The position numbers were made by a program, and so were the translations under genes. The notes under the pieces are model-generated. The model did not search any database, had not been told where the DNA came from, and worked only from the letters and a program-made list of their open reading frames with translations. From Nitrososphaerota archaeon (GTDB lineage: Archaea; Thermoproteota; Nitrososphaeria; Nitrososphaerales; UBA183), in contig JAFMAW010000003.1 in NCBI GenBank assembly GCA_029784795.1, positions 41,395 to 105,394 on the forward strand: a stretch of 64,000 bases of DNA, given 5' to 3'. Below are positions 40,396-56,668 of the stretch, piece after piece (within the stretch, counting starts at the first letter, position 1; each line of letters starts with the position of its first letter).

Positions 40396-40669
40396 CGAGC
40401 GGCAGTTCTCCTATTATGTCGCCGTCCCCGCCCTTCCCGCTCTGATAACCCCACCATACGACCCGAAGAGCATGTTTTCTCACCCTGAATAGAACCAGGA
40501 GCTGAAAGACTGCTGTTTTCAGTCAGAGGATCCTCACCGGTGGCGCGCTCCGGAGTGCGGTCAGGCCTTCGTAATATCTAAATACGTGCTCAAAAGCGCT
40601 CTTCAAGGGGCCCTGTTCCGTGTATTGTTCGAGCGAGGTAGTCTGTATTATCAATGGAGGTAAGACGGC
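40396..40669. promoter_or_regulatory. Upstream region and leader of the RNA polymerase operon
   Basis: The gap between ilvE and rpoH holds a TAATATCTAAATAC promoter element (40572-40585; TATA core about 40577-40584) that predicts transcription from near 40605. A GGAGGT ribosome-binding site at 40656-40661 ends eight bases before the proposed ATA start. Between them, GTATTATCA (40645-40653) is a second, weaker AT-rich element. A CTGAAA...TTTTCAG imperfect hairpin is seen near 40502-40521. Confidence 0.55.
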
Positions 40670-40969
40670 ATAGCAGAGGCGAAGGCCGCTCCCAAGAAGA
40701 CGACGAGAAGGAAGAAGGTAGAGGACGAGGTCCCGGCCTTCAAGGTCAGCACGCACTTTCTGATTCCGAAGCATGAGCTCCTTACCAAGGAAGAGGCAGC
40801 CCAGGCCGTCGCCAGGTTCAACGCGTCACCGTCGCAGTTCCCATATATCCAGTCGACAGACTCGATAGTCAAGGAGATCGGCGCGAAGCCCGGAGACTTC
40901 GTCAGGATCACCAGGACCAGCGAGACCGCAGGCTCCAGCGTGTACTACAGGTACGTGGTGCAGGGATAG
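40670..40969 (+). CDS. rpoH: RNA polymerase subunit H; non-canonical AUA start
   Basis: The 99-residue product is archaeal RpoH (eukaryotic RPB5 C-terminal domain). It has the core STHFLIPKHELLTKEEA, then FNASPSQFPYIQSTDSIVKEIGAKPGDFVRITRTSETAGSSVYYRYVVQG, and a Lys/Arg-rich N-terminal tail. Gene order (just before rpoB) confirms it. From the in-frame stop at 40661 to the conserved core there is no ATG, GTG or TTG. An ATA at 40670 stands eight bases after GGAGGT and gives the sensible N-terminus M-A-E-A-K-A-A-P-K-K. Alternatives are a CTG in the core (too late) or ATG 40654, which is out of frame and would need a sequencing error. Confidence 0.9.
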   Translation: MAEAKAAPKKTTRRKKVEDEVPAFKVSTHFLIPKHELLTKEEAAQAVARFNASPSQFPYIQSTDSIVKEIGAKPGDFVRITRTSETAGSSVYYRYVVQG

Positions 40970-40972
40970 AGA

Positions 40973-43900
40973 TTGAGCAGACAGATAGCGAACAACTCCT
41001 GGGTGATACTGAGCGACCTCCTGCAGAGGGAAGGGGTGGCGCGTCAGCACCTTAACAGCTACAATGAGTTTGTGACCAGGGGCCTCCAGAACATAGTCGA
41101 CGAGATAGGCGAGGTCGAGGTGGAGACCGTCAGCACCCCCTACAGGATAAAGTTCGGCAGAGTGACCCTCGGGTCACCCAGAGTAGTGGAGATAGACGGC
41201 TCCGTGAGCAGCATACTCCCAATGGAGTCGAGGCTGCGGAACCTCACCTATTCTGCCCCGATCCTGCTCGAAATGACCATCGAAGAGGAAGGTCTCCCCC
41301 GCGACACCACCCGCCAGCACATCGGCGACCTCCCTGTCATGGTGAAGAGCGAGCTCTGCCCGCTCTCGAACCGCTCGAGGGACCAGCTCGTAGAGTCTGG
41401 AGAGGATCCCAACGATCCCGGGGGATACTTCATCATCCACGGGGCAGAGAGGGTGATCGTAGGGCTCGAGGACCTCTCGCCAAACAAGATTCTGGTAGAC
41501 GCGGAGAAGCTTGCAGGGGCCACCACCTACAAGTCTCGGGTGTACTCTTCCGTCGTTGGGTACAGGTCAAAGCTTGAGCTGACGCTCAAGCAGGACGGCG
41601 CAATCAACGTCAAGGTTCCAAGCTGCCCGGTGGACCTCCCCTACGTGATAGTAATGCGCGCCCTCGGGATAAAGTCGGACAAGGACATCGCCGACGCGGT
41701 CTCACCCAAGCCCGAGATCCAGGACCTCCTGGAGGTCTCCTTCGACAAGGCGAGCGAAGCGCCCACGGGGAAGGACGCCCTCGTGTTCATCGGGAACAGG
41801 GTCGCCCACGGGATGCTCGAGGAGTTCAGGGTGAAGAGGGCCCTGTCTATGCTCGATTGGGGGCTGCTGCCGCACCTGGGCAAGACGGAGGACAAACGCT
41901 TCGACAAGTCGATGTTCATGGGCGAAGCCGCCTGCAAGCTGCTCGAGCTGAGGCTCGGGTGGATAGAGGCGGACGACAAGGACCACTACGGGAACAAGGT
42001 GATCAAGTTTGCGGGACAGATGCTGGCAGACCTCTTCAGGACCGCCTTCCGCAACCTGGTGAGGGACATGAAGTACCAGCTCGAAAGGACGGGCCAGAAG
42101 CGGGGAGGCAATGTAGTCGGCGCCGCCATCAGGACGGGCATAATCACTGACAAGCTCAACAACGCCATAGCGACCGGGAACTGGGGGAGGGGGAAGGTCG
42201 GGGTGACGCAGCTCCTCGACAGGACCAACTACCTCAGCACCCTGAGCCACCTGAGGCGTGTCCAGTCCCCGCTGAGCAGGAGCCAGCCGAACTTCGAGGC
42301 GAGGGACCTCCACGCGACCCACTTCGGCCGAATATGCCCGTCTGAGACCCCTGAAGGGGTGAACTGCGGCCTGGTGAAGAACCTAGCGCTCTCGGCCATC
42401 ATCTCCGTGAGCGTCCCGTCGCAGGAAGTCGAAGAGAAGCTCTGGGAACTGGGCGCCAGGCAGATCCGAGACTCAGACCAGAAGCTGCAGGTGGATGGCT
42501 GCAGGATATTCATGGACGGGAGGTTCTTGGGATACGTCGACGACGGGGAGCGCCTCGCGAAGGCGTTCCGGAAGCTCAGGCGCGAGGGGCAGATCAACCC
42601 CGGCGCCAGCGTCTTGTATGTCTCCCCGGTGAACGAGAACGCCTACCCGCGGGTCTACATCAGCCTGAGCTCAGGGAGGGTCCTCAGACCGCTGGTCCTG
42701 GTGGAGAGCGGCCGCCCGCTGCTGAACCCCGAGCTCATCGACAAGGTCAGCACGGGGCAGCTGTCTTGGAGGGACCTGGTGGACCAGGGCGTCATCGAGC
42801 TAATCGACGCCAACGAGGAGGAGAACTGCCTCGTCTCCATGGGGGCCGACGACGTCCTGACAAAGAACAGCCACATGGAGCTCTTCCCCGCGGCCATGTT
42901 CGGGATCGCCGCTTCCATAATCCCATACCCGGAGCACAACCAGTCGCCAAGGAACACCTACGAGTCGGCCATGGCGAAGCAGAGCCTGGGCTTCAGCTCG
43001 CCTACCTATCCGATCTCGCCTCACGTGAGGCAGCACCTGCTCGTCAGCCCGCAGGCGCCCGTGGTGCGGACCAGGACCCTGGACCTGCTCAGGATAGACG
43101 AGCGTCCCCTGGGGACGAACTGCGTGGTCGCCGTTCTCTCGTTCGAGGGTTACAACATAGAGGACGCCATCATCATGAACAAGTCCAGCGTCGAGAGGGG
43201 CATGTCTCGTTCATTCTTCTACAGGCTCTACGAAGGCGAGGCCAAGCAGTACCTCGGTGGGATGCGCGACACCTTCGAGGTCCCGGCGGCCGACTCCAAC
43301 ATACGCGGCTACAGAGGGGAGAAGTTCTACCGGCTCCTTGAGGGGGACGGAGTGGTCGCCCACGAGTCGCAGGTGACCGGCGGGGACGTTGTGGTCGGTA
43401 GGACCAGCCCTCCAAGGTTCATGGAGGAGTACAAGGAGTTCGAGATTAAGGGGCCGTACAGGCGGGACACGTCGGTCGCCGTCAGGCCATCCGAGACCGG
43501 CGTGGTGGACTCCATCTTCATGACCGAGAATGTCGAGGGAGGAAAGATGTTCAAGGTGAGGGTCAGAGACATGAGGGTCCCCGAGATAGGAGACAAGTTC
43601 GCGTCAAGGCACGGCCAGAAGGGGGTCATCGGGCTGGTCGTCCCCCAGGAGGACATGCCCTACACCGCCGAGGGGATTGTCCCGGATGTGATAATCAACC
43701 CGCACGCGTTCCCGTCGAGGATGACCGTCGGTCAGTTCATCGAGTCCATCGCAGGCAAGGCCGCCGCATTCCGGGGCTCGCCCGTCGACGGCTCCGCCTT
43801 CGCAGGGGAGAGCATCGAGGAGATGGAGAAGGTCCTCAGGGCGAAGGGGTTCGAGCCAACAGGGAGGGAAGTCATGTACGACGGGAAGACTGGGAAGAAG

Positions 43901-44326
43901 TTCGCGGCCGACGTCTTCGTGGGTGTCGTCTACTACCAGAAGCTGCACCACATGGTTGCGGACAAGATCCACGCGCGAGCAAGAGGACAGGTGCAGATGC
44001 TCACCAAGCAGCCTACCGAAGGGAGGGCCCGCGGAGGCGGCCTCAGGTTCGGGGAGATGGAACGGGACTGCCTGATCGCCTACGGGGCGTCCATGGTACT
44101 CAAGGACAGGCTGCTCGACGAGGCTGACAAGACTGAGATTTACGTCTGCGAGAAGTGCGGCCTGATTGCCTACTACGACGCGAAACAGAGGAGATACACC
44201 TGCAAGATAGACGGCGACCAGGCGAAGATATCCACGGTGGTAGTCGCCTACGCGTTCAAGCTGCTGCTCCAAGAGATGATGAGCCTGAACATAGCACCGC
44301 GGCTCCAGCTGAAGGACAAGGTGTAG
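40973..44326 (+). CDS. rpoB: DNA-directed RNA polymerase subunit B (unsplit)
   Basis: The 1117-residue second-largest subunit is intact; B' and B'' are not separate genes. It has NYLSTLSHLRRVQSP, RICPSETPEGVNCGLVKNLALSA, GYNIEDAIIMNKSSVERG, RDMRVPEIGDKFASRHGQKGVIG and the C-terminal zinc ribbon beginning at C1059 (CEKCGLIAYYDAKQRRYTCK). The TTG start lies three bases after the rpoH stop. rpoA follows after four bases, so the three subunits are translated from one transcript. Confidence 0.98.
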   Translation: MSRQIANNSWVILSDLLQREGVARQHLNSYNEFVTRGLQNIVDEIGEVEVETVSTPYRIKFGRVTLGSPRVVEIDGSVSSILPMESRLRNLTYSAPILLEMTIEEEGLPRDTTRQHIGDLPVMVKSELCPLSNRSRDQLVESGEDPNDPGGYFIIHGAERVIVGLEDLSPNKILVDAEKLAGATTYKSRVYSSVVGYRSKLELTLKQDGAINVKVPSCPVDLPYVIVMRALGIKSDKDIADAVSPKPEIQDLLEVSFDKASEAPTGKDALVFIGNRVAHGMLEEFRVKRALSMLDWGLLPHLGKTEDKRFDKSMFMGEAACKLLELRLGWIEADDKDHYGNKVIKFAGQMLADLFRTAFRNLVRDMKYQLERTGQKRGGNVVGAAIRTGIITDKLNNAIATGNWGRGKVGVTQLLDRTNYLSTLSHLRRVQSPLSRSQPNFEARDLHATHFGRICPSETPEGVNCGLVKNLALSAIISVSVPSQEVEEKLWELGARQIRDSDQKLQVDGCRIFMDGRFLGYVDDGERLAKAFRKLRREGQINPGASVLYVSPVNENAYPRVYISLSSGRVLRPLVLVESGRPLLNPELIDKVSTGQLSWRDLVDQGVIELIDANEEENCLVSMGADDVLTKNSHMELFPAAMFGIAASIIPYPEHNQSPRNTYESAMAKQSLGFSSPTYPISPHVRQHLLVSPQAPVVRTRTLDLLRIDERPLGTNCVVAVLSFEGYNIEDAIIMNKSSVERGMSRSFFYRLYEGEAKQYLGGMRDTFEVPAADSNIRGYRGEKFYRLLEGDGVVAHESQVTGGDVVVGRTSPPRFMEEYKEFEIKGPYRRDTSVAVRPSETGVVDSIFMTENVEGGKMFKVRVRDMRVPEIGDKFASRHGQKGVIGLVVPQEDMPYTAEGIVPDVIINPHAFPSRMTVGQFIESIAGKAAAFRGSPVDGSAFAGESIEEMEKVLRAKGFEPTGREVMYDGKTGKKFAADVFVGVVYYQKLHHMVADKIHARARGQVQMLTKQPTEGRARGGGLRFGEMERDCLIAYGASMVLKDRLLDEADKTEIYVCEKCGLIAYYDAKQRRYTCKIDGDQAKISTVVVAYAFKLLLQEMMSLNIAPRLQLKDKV

Positions 44327-44330
44327 AGAC

Positions 44331-47300
44331 ATGTCAATGGAACAGGCGCTCAAGACCATCGGCGGGATCAACTTCGCAGTCTTCTCCCCCGCGGAGGTCA
44401 GGAAGTACTCAGTCGCCGAGATAACTCAGCCGGAGACCTATGACGAAGACGGGATGCCGGTCCAGGGGGGGCTCATGGACAGCAGGCTCGGGACCCTCGA
44501 GCCGGGACAGAAATGCGGTACCTGCGGAGGGACAGCGGGCAGGTGCCCGGGTCACTTCGGCCACGTCGAGCTGGCCGAGCCGGTCCTCCACATCGCGTTC
44601 GTAGATGAGATCAACAGGTTGGTCCAGACGACCTGCAGGTCCTGCGGAAGGATACTCCTCCCGCAGCAGGAGCTGGACGCCTACCAGACGAAGCTGACGA
44701 GCCAGACAGACTATACCCCGTCCCTGGTGGCGGCGGTGGCCAAGGAGATCATCACGAAGGCGAAGAAGGTCAAGCTCTGCCCGCACTGCGGGAAGCAGCA
44801 GTACCAGATCGAGTTCACGAAGCCGACCATCTTCCACGAGATCACCGAGGAAGGGGGGGCGACCCGCCTGCTCCCGGTGGCGATCCGCGAGCGCCTGGAG
44901 AGGATAAACAACGACGACCTCGGGCTCCTCGGGTTCAACTCCAAGGCGGCCAGGCCAGAGTGGTTCGTGCTGCAGGTGCTCCAGGTCCCTCCGCTCACGG
45001 TCCGCCCGTCCATTACGCTGGAGTCTGGCATCAGGTCGGAGGACGACCTCACCCACAAGGTGGTGGACATCCTCAGGGTCAACCAGCGGGTACGCGAGTC
45101 CAAGGAGTCGGGCACCCCGCACCTGATCGTCCAGGACCTGGTCGACCTCCTTCACTATCACGTCACCACATACTTCGACAACGAAGTCTCAGGGATCCCC
45201 CAGGCACACCACAGGTCCGGGAGGCCGCTGAAGACCCTCAGCCAGAGGCTGAAGGGGAAGGAGGGGCGCTTCAGAGGGTCGCTGTCGGGGAAGAGGGTCG
45301 ACTTCTCCAGCCGCACTGTGATCAGCCCTGACCCAAACCTCGACATAGGGGAAGTAGGGGTGCCGTTCGAGGTGGCGAAGAAGCTGACCATACCAGAGAA
45401 GGTCTCCCCGTTTAACATCAATCATCTGAAGGACCTGGTCAACAGGGGCCCCTTCGAGCACCCCGGCGCTAACTATGTCATAAGGCCGGACGGCGTGAAG
45501 ATCAGGCTCGACTTCGCCAGCGACAGGAAGGCGCTGGCAGACTCGCTCACCCCAGGGTATATAGTAGAAAGGCACCTGATGGACGGGGACATCGTCCTCT
45601 TCAACAGGCAGCCGTCGCTCCACAGGATGTCAGTCATGGCGCACTTCGTCCGGGTGCTCCCGTTCAGGACCTTCAGGCTCCACCCCTCGGTCTGCCCTCC
45701 TTACAACGCTGACTTCGACGGGGACGAGATGAACCTCCACGTTCCCCAGAGCGAGGAGTCTCGGTCCGAGGCGCTCATGCTGATGAGGGTGCAGGACCAG
45801 ATACTCTCGCCAAGGTACGGGGGGCCCATCATCGGAGGAATCAGGGACTTCATCACAGGCGCGTTCATGCTCACGCGGGATGAGGCCGCCCTCACCCCGG
45901 CGGAGTTCTCCAACCTCGCCCTTGTCGGGGATTACGTCGGGGACCTCCCGGAGCCAGCGGTGAAGGGGACGCATCCCACATACACGGGCAAGCAGCTCTT
46001 CTCCCTCTTCCTCCCCAAGGGGATGAACTACGTCCTCACCTCGAAGTGGGCCAAGGCCCAGAGGACCGGGGCCACCAACGACGTGGTCATACGTGACGGC
46101 GAGCTGATCTCCGGGGTCGTCGACAAGGCAGTCATAGGGGCCGAGGAGCCTGACTCCCTGCTGCACAGGATCGCCAAGGACTACGGCAACGAAGAGGCCC
46201 GCAACTTCCTTAATTCGATACTGAAGGTGCTCAAGACCTTCCTCACCCGCAGGGGCTTCACCTACGGGTTCAACGAGCTCGAGCTCCCCACCGAGGCCAA
46301 GCAAGGGATCACCGACGCCCTCGACGAGGCTTATGCCAGCGTCACAGACCTCCAGAAGAAGTACAAGACCGGTTCGCTGCAGCTGACCAGAGGGCTCTCG
46401 GCGGAGGACACCCTCGAGGCGTACATAGTCAACGAGCTCGCGAAGGCCAGGGACAAGGCAGGGAGGATAGCCGACAAGGCCTTCCCCGCGGAGAATTCAG
46501 GCATGATCATGGCCAGGACCGGAGCCAGGGGGTCGAGCCTCAACGTCGGCCAGATGACTGCGGCCCTGGGGCAGCAGTCCGTCCGCGGCAAGAGAATCAG
46601 CCACGGCCTGAAGGGGAGGGCGCTGAGCCACTTCGCCTGGAACGACCCGTCCCCCACCGCCAAGGGGTTCGTCAAGAGCAACTACAGAGACGGCCTCTCC
46701 CCGACTGAGTTCTTCTTCCACGCGATGGGCGGCCGCGAGGGCCTCGTCGACACTGCGGTCAGGACCCAGCAGAGCGGCTACATGCAGAGGAGGCTGGTCA
46801 ACGCCCTGGAGCACCTCAAGGTCGAGTACGACCTCACGGTGAGGGACCCACACGGCCACGTCATCCAGTTCCTCTACGGCGAGGACGGCGTCGATCCCGC
46901 TAAGAGCGACCACGGGCGCCCCATCAACCTGGACAGGCTGATTGAGACCGAGGAGCTGTCGCGTAAGTCGAAGGCGAAGACCAGCGAGGAGGGACTGGAG
47001 ACGCTCCTGAAGAAGTACCAGTCCTCGCTCAACGAAAGGCTGGTCAAGGAGCTGAGGGACAAGCTCGGAGACTCTCATCTCACGGACGAAGGGCTCAAGG
47101 AGTCCATGGAAAGGGTGGCCGAGGCCCTCGACTACTCGAGGGTCGAGCCTGGCGAGGCGTCGGGCATAGTCGCCGCCCAGTCCATAGGGGAACCAGGCAC
47201 CCAGATGACACTCAGGACCTTCCACTTCGCGGGGGTCCGCGAGAGAGACGTCACCCTGGGGCTGCCGAGGCTGATGGAGCTGGTGGACGCCCGCAAGATC

Positions 47301-48119
47301 CCGGCGAAACCGTCCATGGACATCTACCTGACCAAAGACTATGCTGCCCAGAACGAGAAGGCGGTCAAGGTGGCGAAGGAGATACTCTTCACCAAGGTCG
47401 GGAACGTCGTTGCCTTCAGCGAGGTCGACCCCACGGAGGGGATCAAGCTTCACCTCAACCCAGAGATGATGGCCGACAGGGACACGAACCCGGAGGAGAT
47501 CGCCAAGGTGATAGAGACCGGGAAGCGGAAGGTCCAGCAGGACAAGAAGAACGCGAACATCATCCACGTCAGCATGCCTGACGCCGACCTCTCGGCCCTG
47601 TTCACGCTCAGGAACAAGATCCTCAACATGAAACTGAAGGGAATCCCCGGGATCACCCGGGTCACGGTGGTGAAGGAGGGGGAGGAGTGGTTCATACAGA
47701 CCTCAGGCTCGAACCTGGGCAAGGTCGTGCAGGTCCAGGGGGTCGACCCGAGCAAGGTATACACCAACAACGTCCACGAGGTAGCCCAGGTCCTCGGCAT
47801 CGAGGCTGCCCGCGCCACTCTCGTGAGGGAGCTCATGAGCACCCTGGACGAGCAGGGGCTCGAGGTGGACATCCGCCACATCTTCCTGGTGGCTGACCTG
47901 ATGACCTCCAAGGGGTACATCCAGCAGATAGGAAGGCACGGCATCGCAGGGACCAAGAGCAGCGTCCTCGCCCGGGCCGCCTTCGAGATCACGGTCCCGA
48001 CCCTCGCCGAAGCCGCGGTCAAGGGGGAGGTCGAGGACCTGAAGGGGGTCACCGAGAACGTCATCGTCGGGCTCCCGATACCGGTGGGGACCGGGATGAT
48101 CGACCTCTACATGAGCTGA
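44331..48119 (+). CDS. rpoA: DNA-directed RNA polymerase subunit A, fused A'-A''
   Basis: The 1262-residue protein carries the whole largest subunit in one chain. Near the start is zinc site C62-x2-C65-x6-C72-x2-H75. The catalytic Mg site NADFDGDE has D461, D463 and D465. The bridge helix region FFFHAMGGREGLVDTAVRTQQSGYMQRRLV follows, then A''-type sequence from about residue 850 on (GEASGIVAAQSIGEPGTQMTLRTFHFAGV) ending in LPIPVGTGMIDLYMS. Most archaea split this gene into rpoA1 and rpoA2; the fused form is known in Thaumarchaeota and some relatives. No frameshift or internal gap is seen. Confidence 0.98.
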   Translation: MSMEQALKTIGGINFAVFSPAEVRKYSVAEITQPETYDEDGMPVQGGLMDSRLGTLEPGQKCGTCGGTAGRCPGHFGHVELAEPVLHIAFVDEINRLVQTTCRSCGRILLPQQELDAYQTKLTSQTDYTPSLVAAVAKEIITKAKKVKLCPHCGKQQYQIEFTKPTIFHEITEEGGATRLLPVAIRERLERINNDDLGLLGFNSKAARPEWFVLQVLQVPPLTVRPSITLESGIRSEDDLTHKVVDILRVNQRVRESKESGTPHLIVQDLVDLLHYHVTTYFDNEVSGIPQAHHRSGRPLKTLSQRLKGKEGRFRGSLSGKRVDFSSRTVISPDPNLDIGEVGVPFEVAKKLTIPEKVSPFNINHLKDLVNRGPFEHPGANYVIRPDGVKIRLDFASDRKALADSLTPGYIVERHLMDGDIVLFNRQPSLHRMSVMAHFVRVLPFRTFRLHPSVCPPYNADFDGDEMNLHVPQSEESRSEALMLMRVQDQILSPRYGGPIIGGIRDFITGAFMLTRDEAALTPAEFSNLALVGDYVGDLPEPAVKGTHPTYTGKQLFSLFLPKGMNYVLTSKWAKAQRTGATNDVVIRDGELISGVVDKAVIGAEEPDSLLHRIAKDYGNEEARNFLNSILKVLKTFLTRRGFTYGFNELELPTEAKQGITDALDEAYASVTDLQKKYKTGSLQLTRGLSAEDTLEAYIVNELAKARDKAGRIADKAFPAENSGMIMARTGARGSSLNVGQMTAALGQQSVRGKRISHGLKGRALSHFAWNDPSPTAKGFVKSNYRDGLSPTEFFFHAMGGREGLVDTAVRTQQSGYMQRRLVNALEHLKVEYDLTVRDPHGHVIQFLYGEDGVDPAKSDHGRPINLDRLIETEELSRKSKAKTSEEGLETLLKKYQSSLNERLVKELRDKLGDSHLTDEGLKESMERVAEALDYSRVEPGEASGIVAAQSIGEPGTQMTLRTFHFAGVRERDVTLGLPRLMELVDARKIPAKPSMDIYLTKDYAAQNEKAVKVAKEILFTKVGNVVAFSEVDPTEGIKLHLNPEMMADRDTNPEEIAKVIETGKRKVQQDKKNANIIHVSMPDADLSALFTLRNKILNMKLKGIPGITRVTVVKEGEEWFIQTSGSNLGKVVQVQGVDPSKVYTNNVHEVAQVLGIEAARATLVRELMSTLDEQGLEVDIRHIFLVADLMTSKGYIQQIGRHGIAGTKSSVLARAAFEITVPTLAEAAVKGEVEDLKGVTENVIVGLPIPVGTGMIDLYMS

Positions 48120-54938: not shown

Positions 54939-55637
54939 ATGTCGCGTTTCGTCCTCGTCCCAGGCGCCTGGCTCGGCGCATGGGCCTGGAAGTACGTCGT
55001 GCCTCTCCTCGAGAGGGAGGGCCACAAGGCCTACCCGGTGACCCTCACGGGGATGGGGGAGAGGGCCCACCTGATGTCCAAGGACGTCGGCATGGAGACG
55101 GCGACACGCGACGTGCTCAACGTGATACGGTACAACGAGCTGGACGACTTCATACTCGTGGGGCACAGCTTCGCCGGCAAGGTGGCCGCGGCGGTGGCCG
55201 ACAGCGCCCATGACAGGGTGTCGAAGGTGATCTACCTCGACGCCTTCAGGCCTGAGAGGGTCCGAGGGCCTCAGGGCAGCTTCGACCCGTCCAAGGAGTT
55301 TCCTTCACTCACCCCCGACTCGCTGGGGGTCCCGCTCACAGAGCAGACGGTAGACACCATAGGGAAGGACCTCGTGGGGGAGAAGAGGAAATGGATGATG
55401 TCCATGGCCACCCCCTGGCCTGTCAAGCTAGCCAAGGACCCGATAACCCTGTCCAAGGAATACGACCCGGTCAAGGAGGCATACGTCTTCTGCACCCTCG
55501 CAGGGGACCCGGTGGATGAGATCATCGCCGGGAAGTGGGGAAAGCTGGAAGGGCCATACAGGCTCATCGAGACGGGGCACTGGCCCATGATAACGGACCC
55601 CGAGGGGACTGCCCGTGACCTCATCGCCCTCTCGTAA
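54939..55637 (+). CDS. Alpha/beta hydrolase (salicylate esterase/hydroxynitrile lyase-like)
   Basis: The 232-residue protein opens FVLVPGAWLGAWAWKYVVPLLEREGHKAY and has the nucleophile S77 in VGHSFAG, an acid residue near the C-terminal third and His in ETGHWPMITDPE. This is the short EstA/methyl-esterase branch of the fold. The ATG at 54939 is 26-31 bases after a CTTATGTATG box, so the transcript is leaderless. Frame open upstream of that box is not used. Substrate unknown. Confidence 0.87.
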   Translation: MSRFVLVPGAWLGAWAWKYVVPLLEREGHKAYPVTLTGMGERAHLMSKDVGMETATRDVLNVIRYNELDDFILVGHSFAGKVAAAVADSAHDRVSKVIYLDAFRPERVRGPQGSFDPSKEFPSLTPDSLGVPLTEQTVDTIGKDLVGEKRKWMMSMATPWPVKLAKDPITLSKEYDPVKEAYVFCTLAGDPVDEIIAGKWGKLEGPYRLIETGHWPMITDPEGTARDLIALS

Positions 55638-55672
55638 GGTGTCATGAGAATGGCAGGGCCGGCTGTGAAGCC

Positions 55673-56668
55673 TTGAGCCCCAAGGCCTCGGGGGCGTCTT
55701 GGCTCCTCGGGGATGACCAGCCTTCGGTCCGGTATCTCGCCCTGACGGAGCTGCTCGGAAGGCCCCAGAGCGACTCTGAGGTCGCGGCGGCCAAAGCCTC
55801 CATCCCTGACCTGGGCTGGGCGAGCGAGATACTCGGCAGGCAGAAGCAGGAGGGATACTGGGAGGGCGGGCGCAGCCTCTACTGGCCGAAATACACCTCG
55901 ACCAACTGGATGCTCCTGGTCCTCTCCGACCTGGGGCTCACGAAGGCGGACCCGAGGGTCGACAGGGCGTGCCGCCTGTGGGTCGACCGGTTCGCGGCCG
56001 AGGACGGCGGCTTCGTGGGATCCAGCAAGGGGGGCGCGAAGCACGGCCACCTCTGCACCACCGGGAACGCCGCCAGGGCCCTGGTCAGGTTCGGCTACGT
56101 CGACCACCCGAAGGTGAAGAGCGCCTTCGAGTGGTTCGTGAAGAGCCAGGCGCGCCTCGGAGGATGGTCCTGCTTCAACTACGGGGAGGCAGCCAGGGGT
56201 CGGAACCTGGACTCCTGGGAGCCGCTCAGCGCCTTCGCGGTCTATCCGAGACAGAAGTGGACCCGGGGTATGAAGGGCGCGGTCGAGAAGGGAGCAGAGT
56301 TCTTCCTGCAGCGGGAGCTGCACATTCAGGGGGACAGGTACGAGCCATGGCATCGGTTCCACTACCCGGTGCACTACTACTACGACCTGCTCGTGGGGCT
56401 CGAGTTCATGACAGCCCTCGGTTACACAGACGACAGGAGGATGGGCTACGCAATCTCTCTGCTGAAGAAGAAGCGAAGGCCGGACGGCAGGTGGCTGCTC
56501 GACGCGGTCCACCCTGACCCGGACAGCCCCCAGGGGGTGTGGAACAGGAGCCACCCGAAGCAGGCGGCCGTCCCCTTCGCCCTGGAGGAGCCCGGAAAGC
56601 CCAGCAAGATGGTCACCCTCAGGGCCCTGACCGTGTTGAAGCGCCTCGGGGAGTGGGCCCCGGCGTGA
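55673..56668 (+). CDS. Alpha/alpha-toroid (prenyltransferase/squalene cyclase-like) repeat protein
   Basis: The 331-residue protein has helical repeats typical of the terpenoid cyclase/protein prenyltransferase toroid: QKQEGYWEGGRSLYWPKYTSTNWMLLVLSDLGL, LWVDRFAAEDGGFVG and KSQARLGGWSCFNYGEAARG. A conserved HLCTTGNAARALVRFGY segment is present. The DxDD motif of squalene cyclases is not seen, so cyclisation is not claimed. The TTG start is 36 bases after the hydrolase stop and the genes may be co-transcribed. Function unknown. Confidence 0.72.
   Translation: MSPKASGASWLLGDDQPSVRYLALTELLGRPQSDSEVAAAKASIPDLGWASEILGRQKQEGYWEGGRSLYWPKYTSTNWMLLVLSDLGLTKADPRVDRACRLWVDRFAAEDGGFVGSSKGGAKHGHLCTTGNAARALVRFGYVDHPKVKSAFEWFVKSQARLGGWSCFNYGEAARGRNLDSWEPLSAFAVYPRQKWTRGMKGAVEKGAEFFLQRELHIQGDRYEPWHRFHYPVHYYYDLLVGLEFMTALGYTDDRRMGYAISLLKKKRRPDGRWLLDAVHPDPDSPQGVWNRSHPKQAAVPFALEEPGKPSKMVTLRALTVLKRLGEWAPA

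Follow-up and report, generated by a model that had tools for sequence, protein, structure and literature searches.

Conserved NUA codons as likely start codons of rpoH at the end of a 17-codon leader frame in an archaeal genus

How does a core gene begin when its reading frame offers no recognized start codon? Archaeal genes are assumed to start at NTG. In the stretch of DNA analysed here, 64,000 nucleotides from a Nitrososphaerota archaeon (hereafter the window), the forward-strand frame of rpoH, which encodes RNA polymerase subunit H (Rpb5 C-terminal domain), is open over 40664-40969 and is preceded by an in-frame stop, TAA at 40661-40663. The original prediction held that ATG, GTG and TTG are absent from this frame ahead of the conserved core. 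Its coordinates proved exact, and the first such codon in the frame, a GTG, comes only at codon index 92. An ATG at 40654 is out of the rpoH frame, as had been stated, and the codon ATA (40670-40672, forward strand), proposed as the start, indeed stands eight nucleotides after a perfect Shine-Dalgarno sequence, GGAGGT at 40656-40661 on the same strand.

The primary structure of the product was then examined. Initiation at ATA would yield a protein of 99 residues (40670-40969), which matched the profile PF01191 (RNA_pol_Rpb5_C) with 93.9 bits (cut-off 23.5) over residues 24-96 of 99 and profile positions 1-73 of 73. The protein also matched solved archaeal Rpo5/RpoH chains in the PDB, with the core domain matched in full. 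Alignments to the matched solved chains began at query residue 18-31, and those to archaeal chains at residue 23-28. Compared with PF01191 and the PDB Rpo5 chains, the window RpoH has about 22 extra N-terminal residues and no NTG start. It had been supposed that this lysine-rich N terminus resembles that of other archaeal RpoH proteins, a view we could not uphold, as the extension is lineage-specific.

The locus was compared within a family set of 46 genomes, 39 of which gave an rpoH match. The genus of the window is represented by 31 genomes with a match in 25, and all 25 loci were read; the six genus genomes without a match (G008, G012, G015, G020, G030 and G031) are 48-74% complete. Together with the window these loci form a set of 26 sequences with 22 distinct leaders (L001 equals the window); loci L031-L056, mostly from the same assemblies as L001-L030, were not counted twice. 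The assemblies carry the collection labels Nitrososphaerota, Thaumarchaeota or Nitrososphaerales, one being labelled bacterium; judging from the available portion of PMC10640624, they may belong to the Gagatemarchaeaceae (Group I.1c, f_UBA183), archaea of soil and acid sites.

At the position of the window's ATA, the 26 sequences display ATA (20), TTA (3), TTG (2) and GTA (1), with ATG or GTG in none, which supports the proposal that rpoH most likely starts at this codon. Independent assemblies carry the same codon pattern and not one of the 25 loci has ATG there, which removes the doubt that a sequencing error had created the ATA. In 17 of the 26, the whole stretch from the upstream in-frame stop to the core is free of NTG, and the weak codon is retained among relatives. 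The other nine do contain one: a GTG two codons upstream of NTA in L003, an ATG two codons upstream in L018 and L024, TTG at the start codon itself in L011 and L014, and an inner GTG in L010, L013, L015 and L017. Since a nearby or inner GTG or ATG is present, NTA need not be used in L003, L018, L024, L010, L013, L015 and L017. Judged from the sequences, the absence of a canonical rpoH start codon exceeds chance. Mismatches within the N-terminal extension, counted by codon position in 46 equal-length pairs, were 215/139/416; this is the pattern of translated DNA and points to translation of the extension.

It had also been expected that gene finders would miss rpoH, and this holds in part. Several JGI-sourced proteins are cut to 83-88 residues at an inner GTG, whereas the NCBI-sourced protein P0002 (99 residues) has Met at the position in question. 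P0002 is the same protein as that of locus L006, whose DNA has ATA at the Met position. Among the 120 matches listed, none was identical to the window RpoH, the best reaching 93%.

The notion of a free-standing ATA start needs revision, because ATA overlaps the stop of a conserved leader ORF of 17 codons (40620-40673, forward strand), which reads GTG TAT TGT TCG AGC GAG GTA GTC TGT ATT ATC AAT GGA GGT AAG ACG GCA TAG and contains the Shine-Dalgarno sequence as GGA GGT. The putative start codon consists of the last base of leader codon 17 and the TA of the leader stop (TAG, 40671-40673), resulting in the four-base overlap ATAG at 40670-40673. The leader was open, 17 codons long and terminated at one fixed place in 26 of 26 sequences (22 distinct), and the co-directed stop/start overlap was found at the same place in all of them. 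Leader start codons are GTG (22) and TTG (4), and stop codons TAG (22), TAA (2) and TGA (2); the other two frames over the leader contain internal stops in 25 and 26 of the 26 sequences. The Shine-Dalgarno sequence is GGRGGT in most loci of the genus and GGAGAT in L011 and L014. Where coupling would lead one to expect a canonical NTG for the downstream gene, NTA was found in 24 of 26 and TTG in two; the latter are again L011 and L014, in which the leader stop is TGA and the rpoH codon consequently reads TTG. The overlap with the leader stop explains the position of ATA better than the Shine-Dalgarno sequence alone.

The first base of NTA, immediately preceding the leader stop, is A in 20, T in 5, G in 1 and C in none of the 26 sequences, a bias weakened by shared descent, which inflates such counts among related sequences. 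Third codon bases in six genes of the window are A 7.7%, T 5.4%, C 47.1% and G 39.8%. GCA makes up 8% of the alanine codons in these genes, but 14 of 19 alanine codons at the last leader position, and the third base of leader codon 16 is distributed as usual (G 20, C 5, A 1). As the leader amino acid varies at the last position, the leader peptide does not account for the A; the bias fits a choice made on the start codon rather than on a leader residue. Conservation of the leader amino acids is modest relative to a column-shuffle null, the BLOSUM score being reached by 9 of 300 shuffles and the synonymous fraction by 42 of 300, and part of it (Gly-Gly) is the Shine-Dalgarno sequence itself. 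By their sequence pattern, both the leader and the rpoH frame are coding.

About 43 nt before the leader ORF lies a TATA-like element, TCTAAATAC (40577-40585, forward strand), the putative promoter of the rpoH operon, and a similar AAATCTAAATAC is present at the same distance in most loci of the genus. rpoH is followed on the same strand by rpoB (40973-44326, TTG start, Pfam RNA_pol_Rpb2 domains) and by an unsplit Rpb1-like rpoA (44331-48119), which carries A' and A'' in one frame (Pfam RNA_pol_Rpb1 domains 1-5). No Rfam family was found near rpoH, the best hit (E 0.35) lying far below its gathering score.

We also examined the arrangement in sister genera. In genus g7, the small ORF is kept in seven of eight genomes (16 codons in L029, 17 in L134-L139) and ends on an ordinary rpoH ATG, as TGATG in L029, L134 and L135 and as TAATG in L136-L139; the exception, L133, has TAA directly before ATG without the small ORF. 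Genus g4 (L026) displays the ATAG arrangement of the window, with an inner GTG further on. In genus g2 (L027, L099 and L100), the stop directly precedes GTG and a 19-codon frame runs from an NTG, while genus g5 (L028) has a 16-codon frame ending one base before ATG and genus g6 (L140) has TAG before GTG and no clear leader. In other families of the order, no such leader ORF was seen by eye among 20 fetched loci, the core being found in 14.

Other genes with unusual starts were sought by comparing orthologs between 800 kb of genome G006 and 640 kb of G010, with gene names assigned by Pfam. An NTG was shared within the first 25 aligned codons in 115 of 167 coding pairs, and from the 52 remaining we followed up carA/carB, TFB, a TRAM-domain gene and a DUF2203 gene. 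The four-base overlap of carA and carB reads GTAA in 10, GTAG in 6 and GTGA in 12 loci (28 of 30 fetched, two being without a match), and the carB start codon is GTA in 16 of 20 loci of genus g1 and GTG in all eight of g6/g7. Read in this way, carA/carB is a second operon with the same NTG/NTA switch at the overlap as rpoH. A carB start at NCG was considered and rejected, since that stretch is the end of carA in the wrong frame, the overlap being located at a GTR codon.

The TFB genes (29 of 30 loci), in which several paralogues are mixed, gave ATA in 5, TTA in 2, AAA in 1 (with TTG adjacent) and NTG in 21, and the seven ATA/TTA loci had no NTG in the stretch read. For the TRAM-domain gene, ACG was found in 22 and ATG in 8 of 30 loci, ACG being present in 20 of 21 g1 loci and ATG in g6/g7. 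Of these 22 ACG loci, 15 have no upstream in-frame NTG, six have one at a distance of 16 or more codons, and in L188 a GTG precedes the ACG by three codons. In the DUF2203 gene, 28 of 30 loci carry ACG where the gene probably begins, a weak case because only 9 of the 30 have no NTG at all. A scan for starts supported by a Shine-Dalgarno sequence, too noisy in this GC-rich DNA to be informative, brought out only TTG (ratio 9.7) and not even ATG or GTG; it lends no support to ATA or ACG.

Several further observations were made along the way. In part of the family, carB carries an insert of 21-24 nt between IGEAGE and FDYSGS, which forms a hairpin whose loop contains a stop codon (L355, at G006 C1:103646-103856, and L345, L347, L349-L354 and L356-L359). 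By eye, its stem changes on both sides between loci, and the insert may be a tiny archaeal mRNA intron. Within the window at 55619-55680, a gene-end TAA (55635-55637) overlaps a downstream frame as GTAA, with TTG at 55673 as an alternative start. The G010 C13 ORF G10_+_223666_224520 has a possible CTG start at a CTGA overlap, the G006 ortholog reading TTGA.

Taking these results together, we consider it probable that the leader is translated and that ribosomes then undergo termination-reinitiation at the NUA of rpoH. Ribosomes would translate the 17-codon leader at the front of the rpoH mRNA and terminate at UAG (40671-40673). They would then be kept in place by the leader-internal GGAGGU and reinitiate one base back at AUA (40670-40672) by way of the AUAG overlap. 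What we infer is a translated leader, an rpoH dependent on it and an initiator tRNA that pairs with NUA; the regulatory purpose may be to keep H in step with, or below, the state of transcription or translation. Counting for reinitiation at NUA are the conservation of NTA, the fixed leader, the TGATG/TAATG arrangement in g7, the A bias, the carA/carB switch and the ATAG of g4. Counting against it are UUA and GUA, which differ from AUG at two bases, and the modest conservation of the leader.

The same AUA might instead be an independent start selected through the Shine-Dalgarno sequence alone, the leader ORF being incidental or serving another purpose. The 8-nt spacing from GGAGGT would suit this, as would the TFB loci L300, L301, L311 and L314, where ATAT or ATAC presents NTA without a stop overlap, and the ACG start of the TRAM-domain gene, seen without a leader overlap. 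We regard it as unlikely, since leader length and stop position are fixed in 26 of 26 sequences and the overlap in g7 is of the coupled type. Ribosomes leaving the leader could also reinitiate at the next codon, x+2 (GCA, GTA, GTC, ACA and others), or be indifferent to the codon. The ATG of g7 does sit at x+2, but NTG occurs at x+2 in none of the 26 sequences and it is the x-1 codon that carries the A bias, leaving this explanation improbable. Ribosomal frameshifting by -1 as the leader ends would fuse the leader peptide to RpoH and account for the missing start codon, as none would be needed, and the register of the two overlapping frames is the one that such a shift requires. It is nevertheless improbable: the two codons before the leader stop, on reading the 26 sequences, vary freely between loci and thus form no conserved slip site, every one of the 26 loci has a TAA or TAG in the rpoH frame 6 nt upstream of NTA, and rpoH of g7 has its own ATG. 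That the mRNA is changed by splicing or base editing to give a normal start hardly deserves credence in view of the conservation of the leader stop itself, even though a single base change would turn NTA into NTG, or ACG into ATG, and carB of part of the family contains the small intron-like hairpin insert.

The anticodon arm of initiator tRNA, ATCCCGGCGGGCTCATA with CAU, gave a single exact match in 12 of 12 genomes (two outgroups), so an altered initiator anticodon is not supported as the cause of NUA starts. Loss of aIF1 is not supported either; the factor (PF01253) was found in 40 of 46 genomes, although 3 of the 15 best assemblies lack it. What the tRNA finder had called a UGA-decoding tRNA is actually a CAU tRNA with an intron. 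The acceptor ends of initiator tRNA are AGCGAGG/CCTCGCT in ten family members (L402-L411) and AGCGGGG/CCCCGCT in outgroup G044. Comparison of L402-L411 with L413 displays an acceptor A-U in place of G-C, and the family genes have introns at up to several sites.

Whether the start set of the family is widened, with NUA (AUA, UUA, GUA) and ACG used beside NUG in rpoH, carB, TFB and the TRAM protein and third-base G not required at stop-start overlaps in the best-studied genus, is to us an evenly balanced question. If it is, leader and upstream stops would be free to be UAA or UAG, as third-base G would not be required at overlaps. With the CAU anticodon unchanged, one would have to look to tRNA modification, the ribosome or initiation factors for the cause, and start-codon fidelity in an aIF1-bearing lineage would be a testable question. 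If this uncultured family keeps NUA and ACG starts in core genes over at least one genus, gene catalogues would contain such genes in truncated form or not at all. Standing directly in front of the polymerase operon, the 17-codon leader is a candidate site for controlling how much RNA polymerase is supplied, and the change from GTGA to GTAA/GTAG in carA/carB offers a natural series on whether reinitiation relaxes start-codon identity.

Termination-reinitiation at overlapping genes occurs in archaea and bacteria, according to the available parts of two studies (Huber et al. 2019, PMC6728339; PMC10666635). In the portion of PMC10666635 at hand, overlaps of -4 (ATGA/GTGA) and -1 (TAATG, TGATG, TAGTG) are common, and all start codons have G in the third place, the rare non-canonical ATT being allowed. 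As far as these excerpts describe such systems, the rpoH arrangement resembles them in its co-directed stop-start overlap, often with an internal Shine-Dalgarno sequence. It differs from those of PMC10666635 in that its -4 overlap takes the form NTAG/NTAA, the start codon having A in the third place, and in that the upstream gene is a 17-codon leader. Searches of the open-access literature did not reveal any archaeal case of conserved NUA or ACG starts, nor one of NUA starts at stop-start overlaps kept across an archaeal genus. E. coli infC starts at AUU. In Staphylococcus aureus, infC and ccpN have conserved AUA starts with strong Shine-Dalgarno sequences and a measured expression below that of AUG, as given in the accessible part of PMC13009471. 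rpoH is like these genes in its conserved near-cognate AUA and strong Shine-Dalgarno sequence. By the same partial account they differ from it in being bacterial and mediated by initiation factor IF3, with no stop-start overlap reported, and UUA and GUA also occur at rpoH. Non-AUG starts and stop-start coupling are thus each already known; what is new here is the overlap with the leader stop, and a sign that this family tolerates NUA and ACG as starts.
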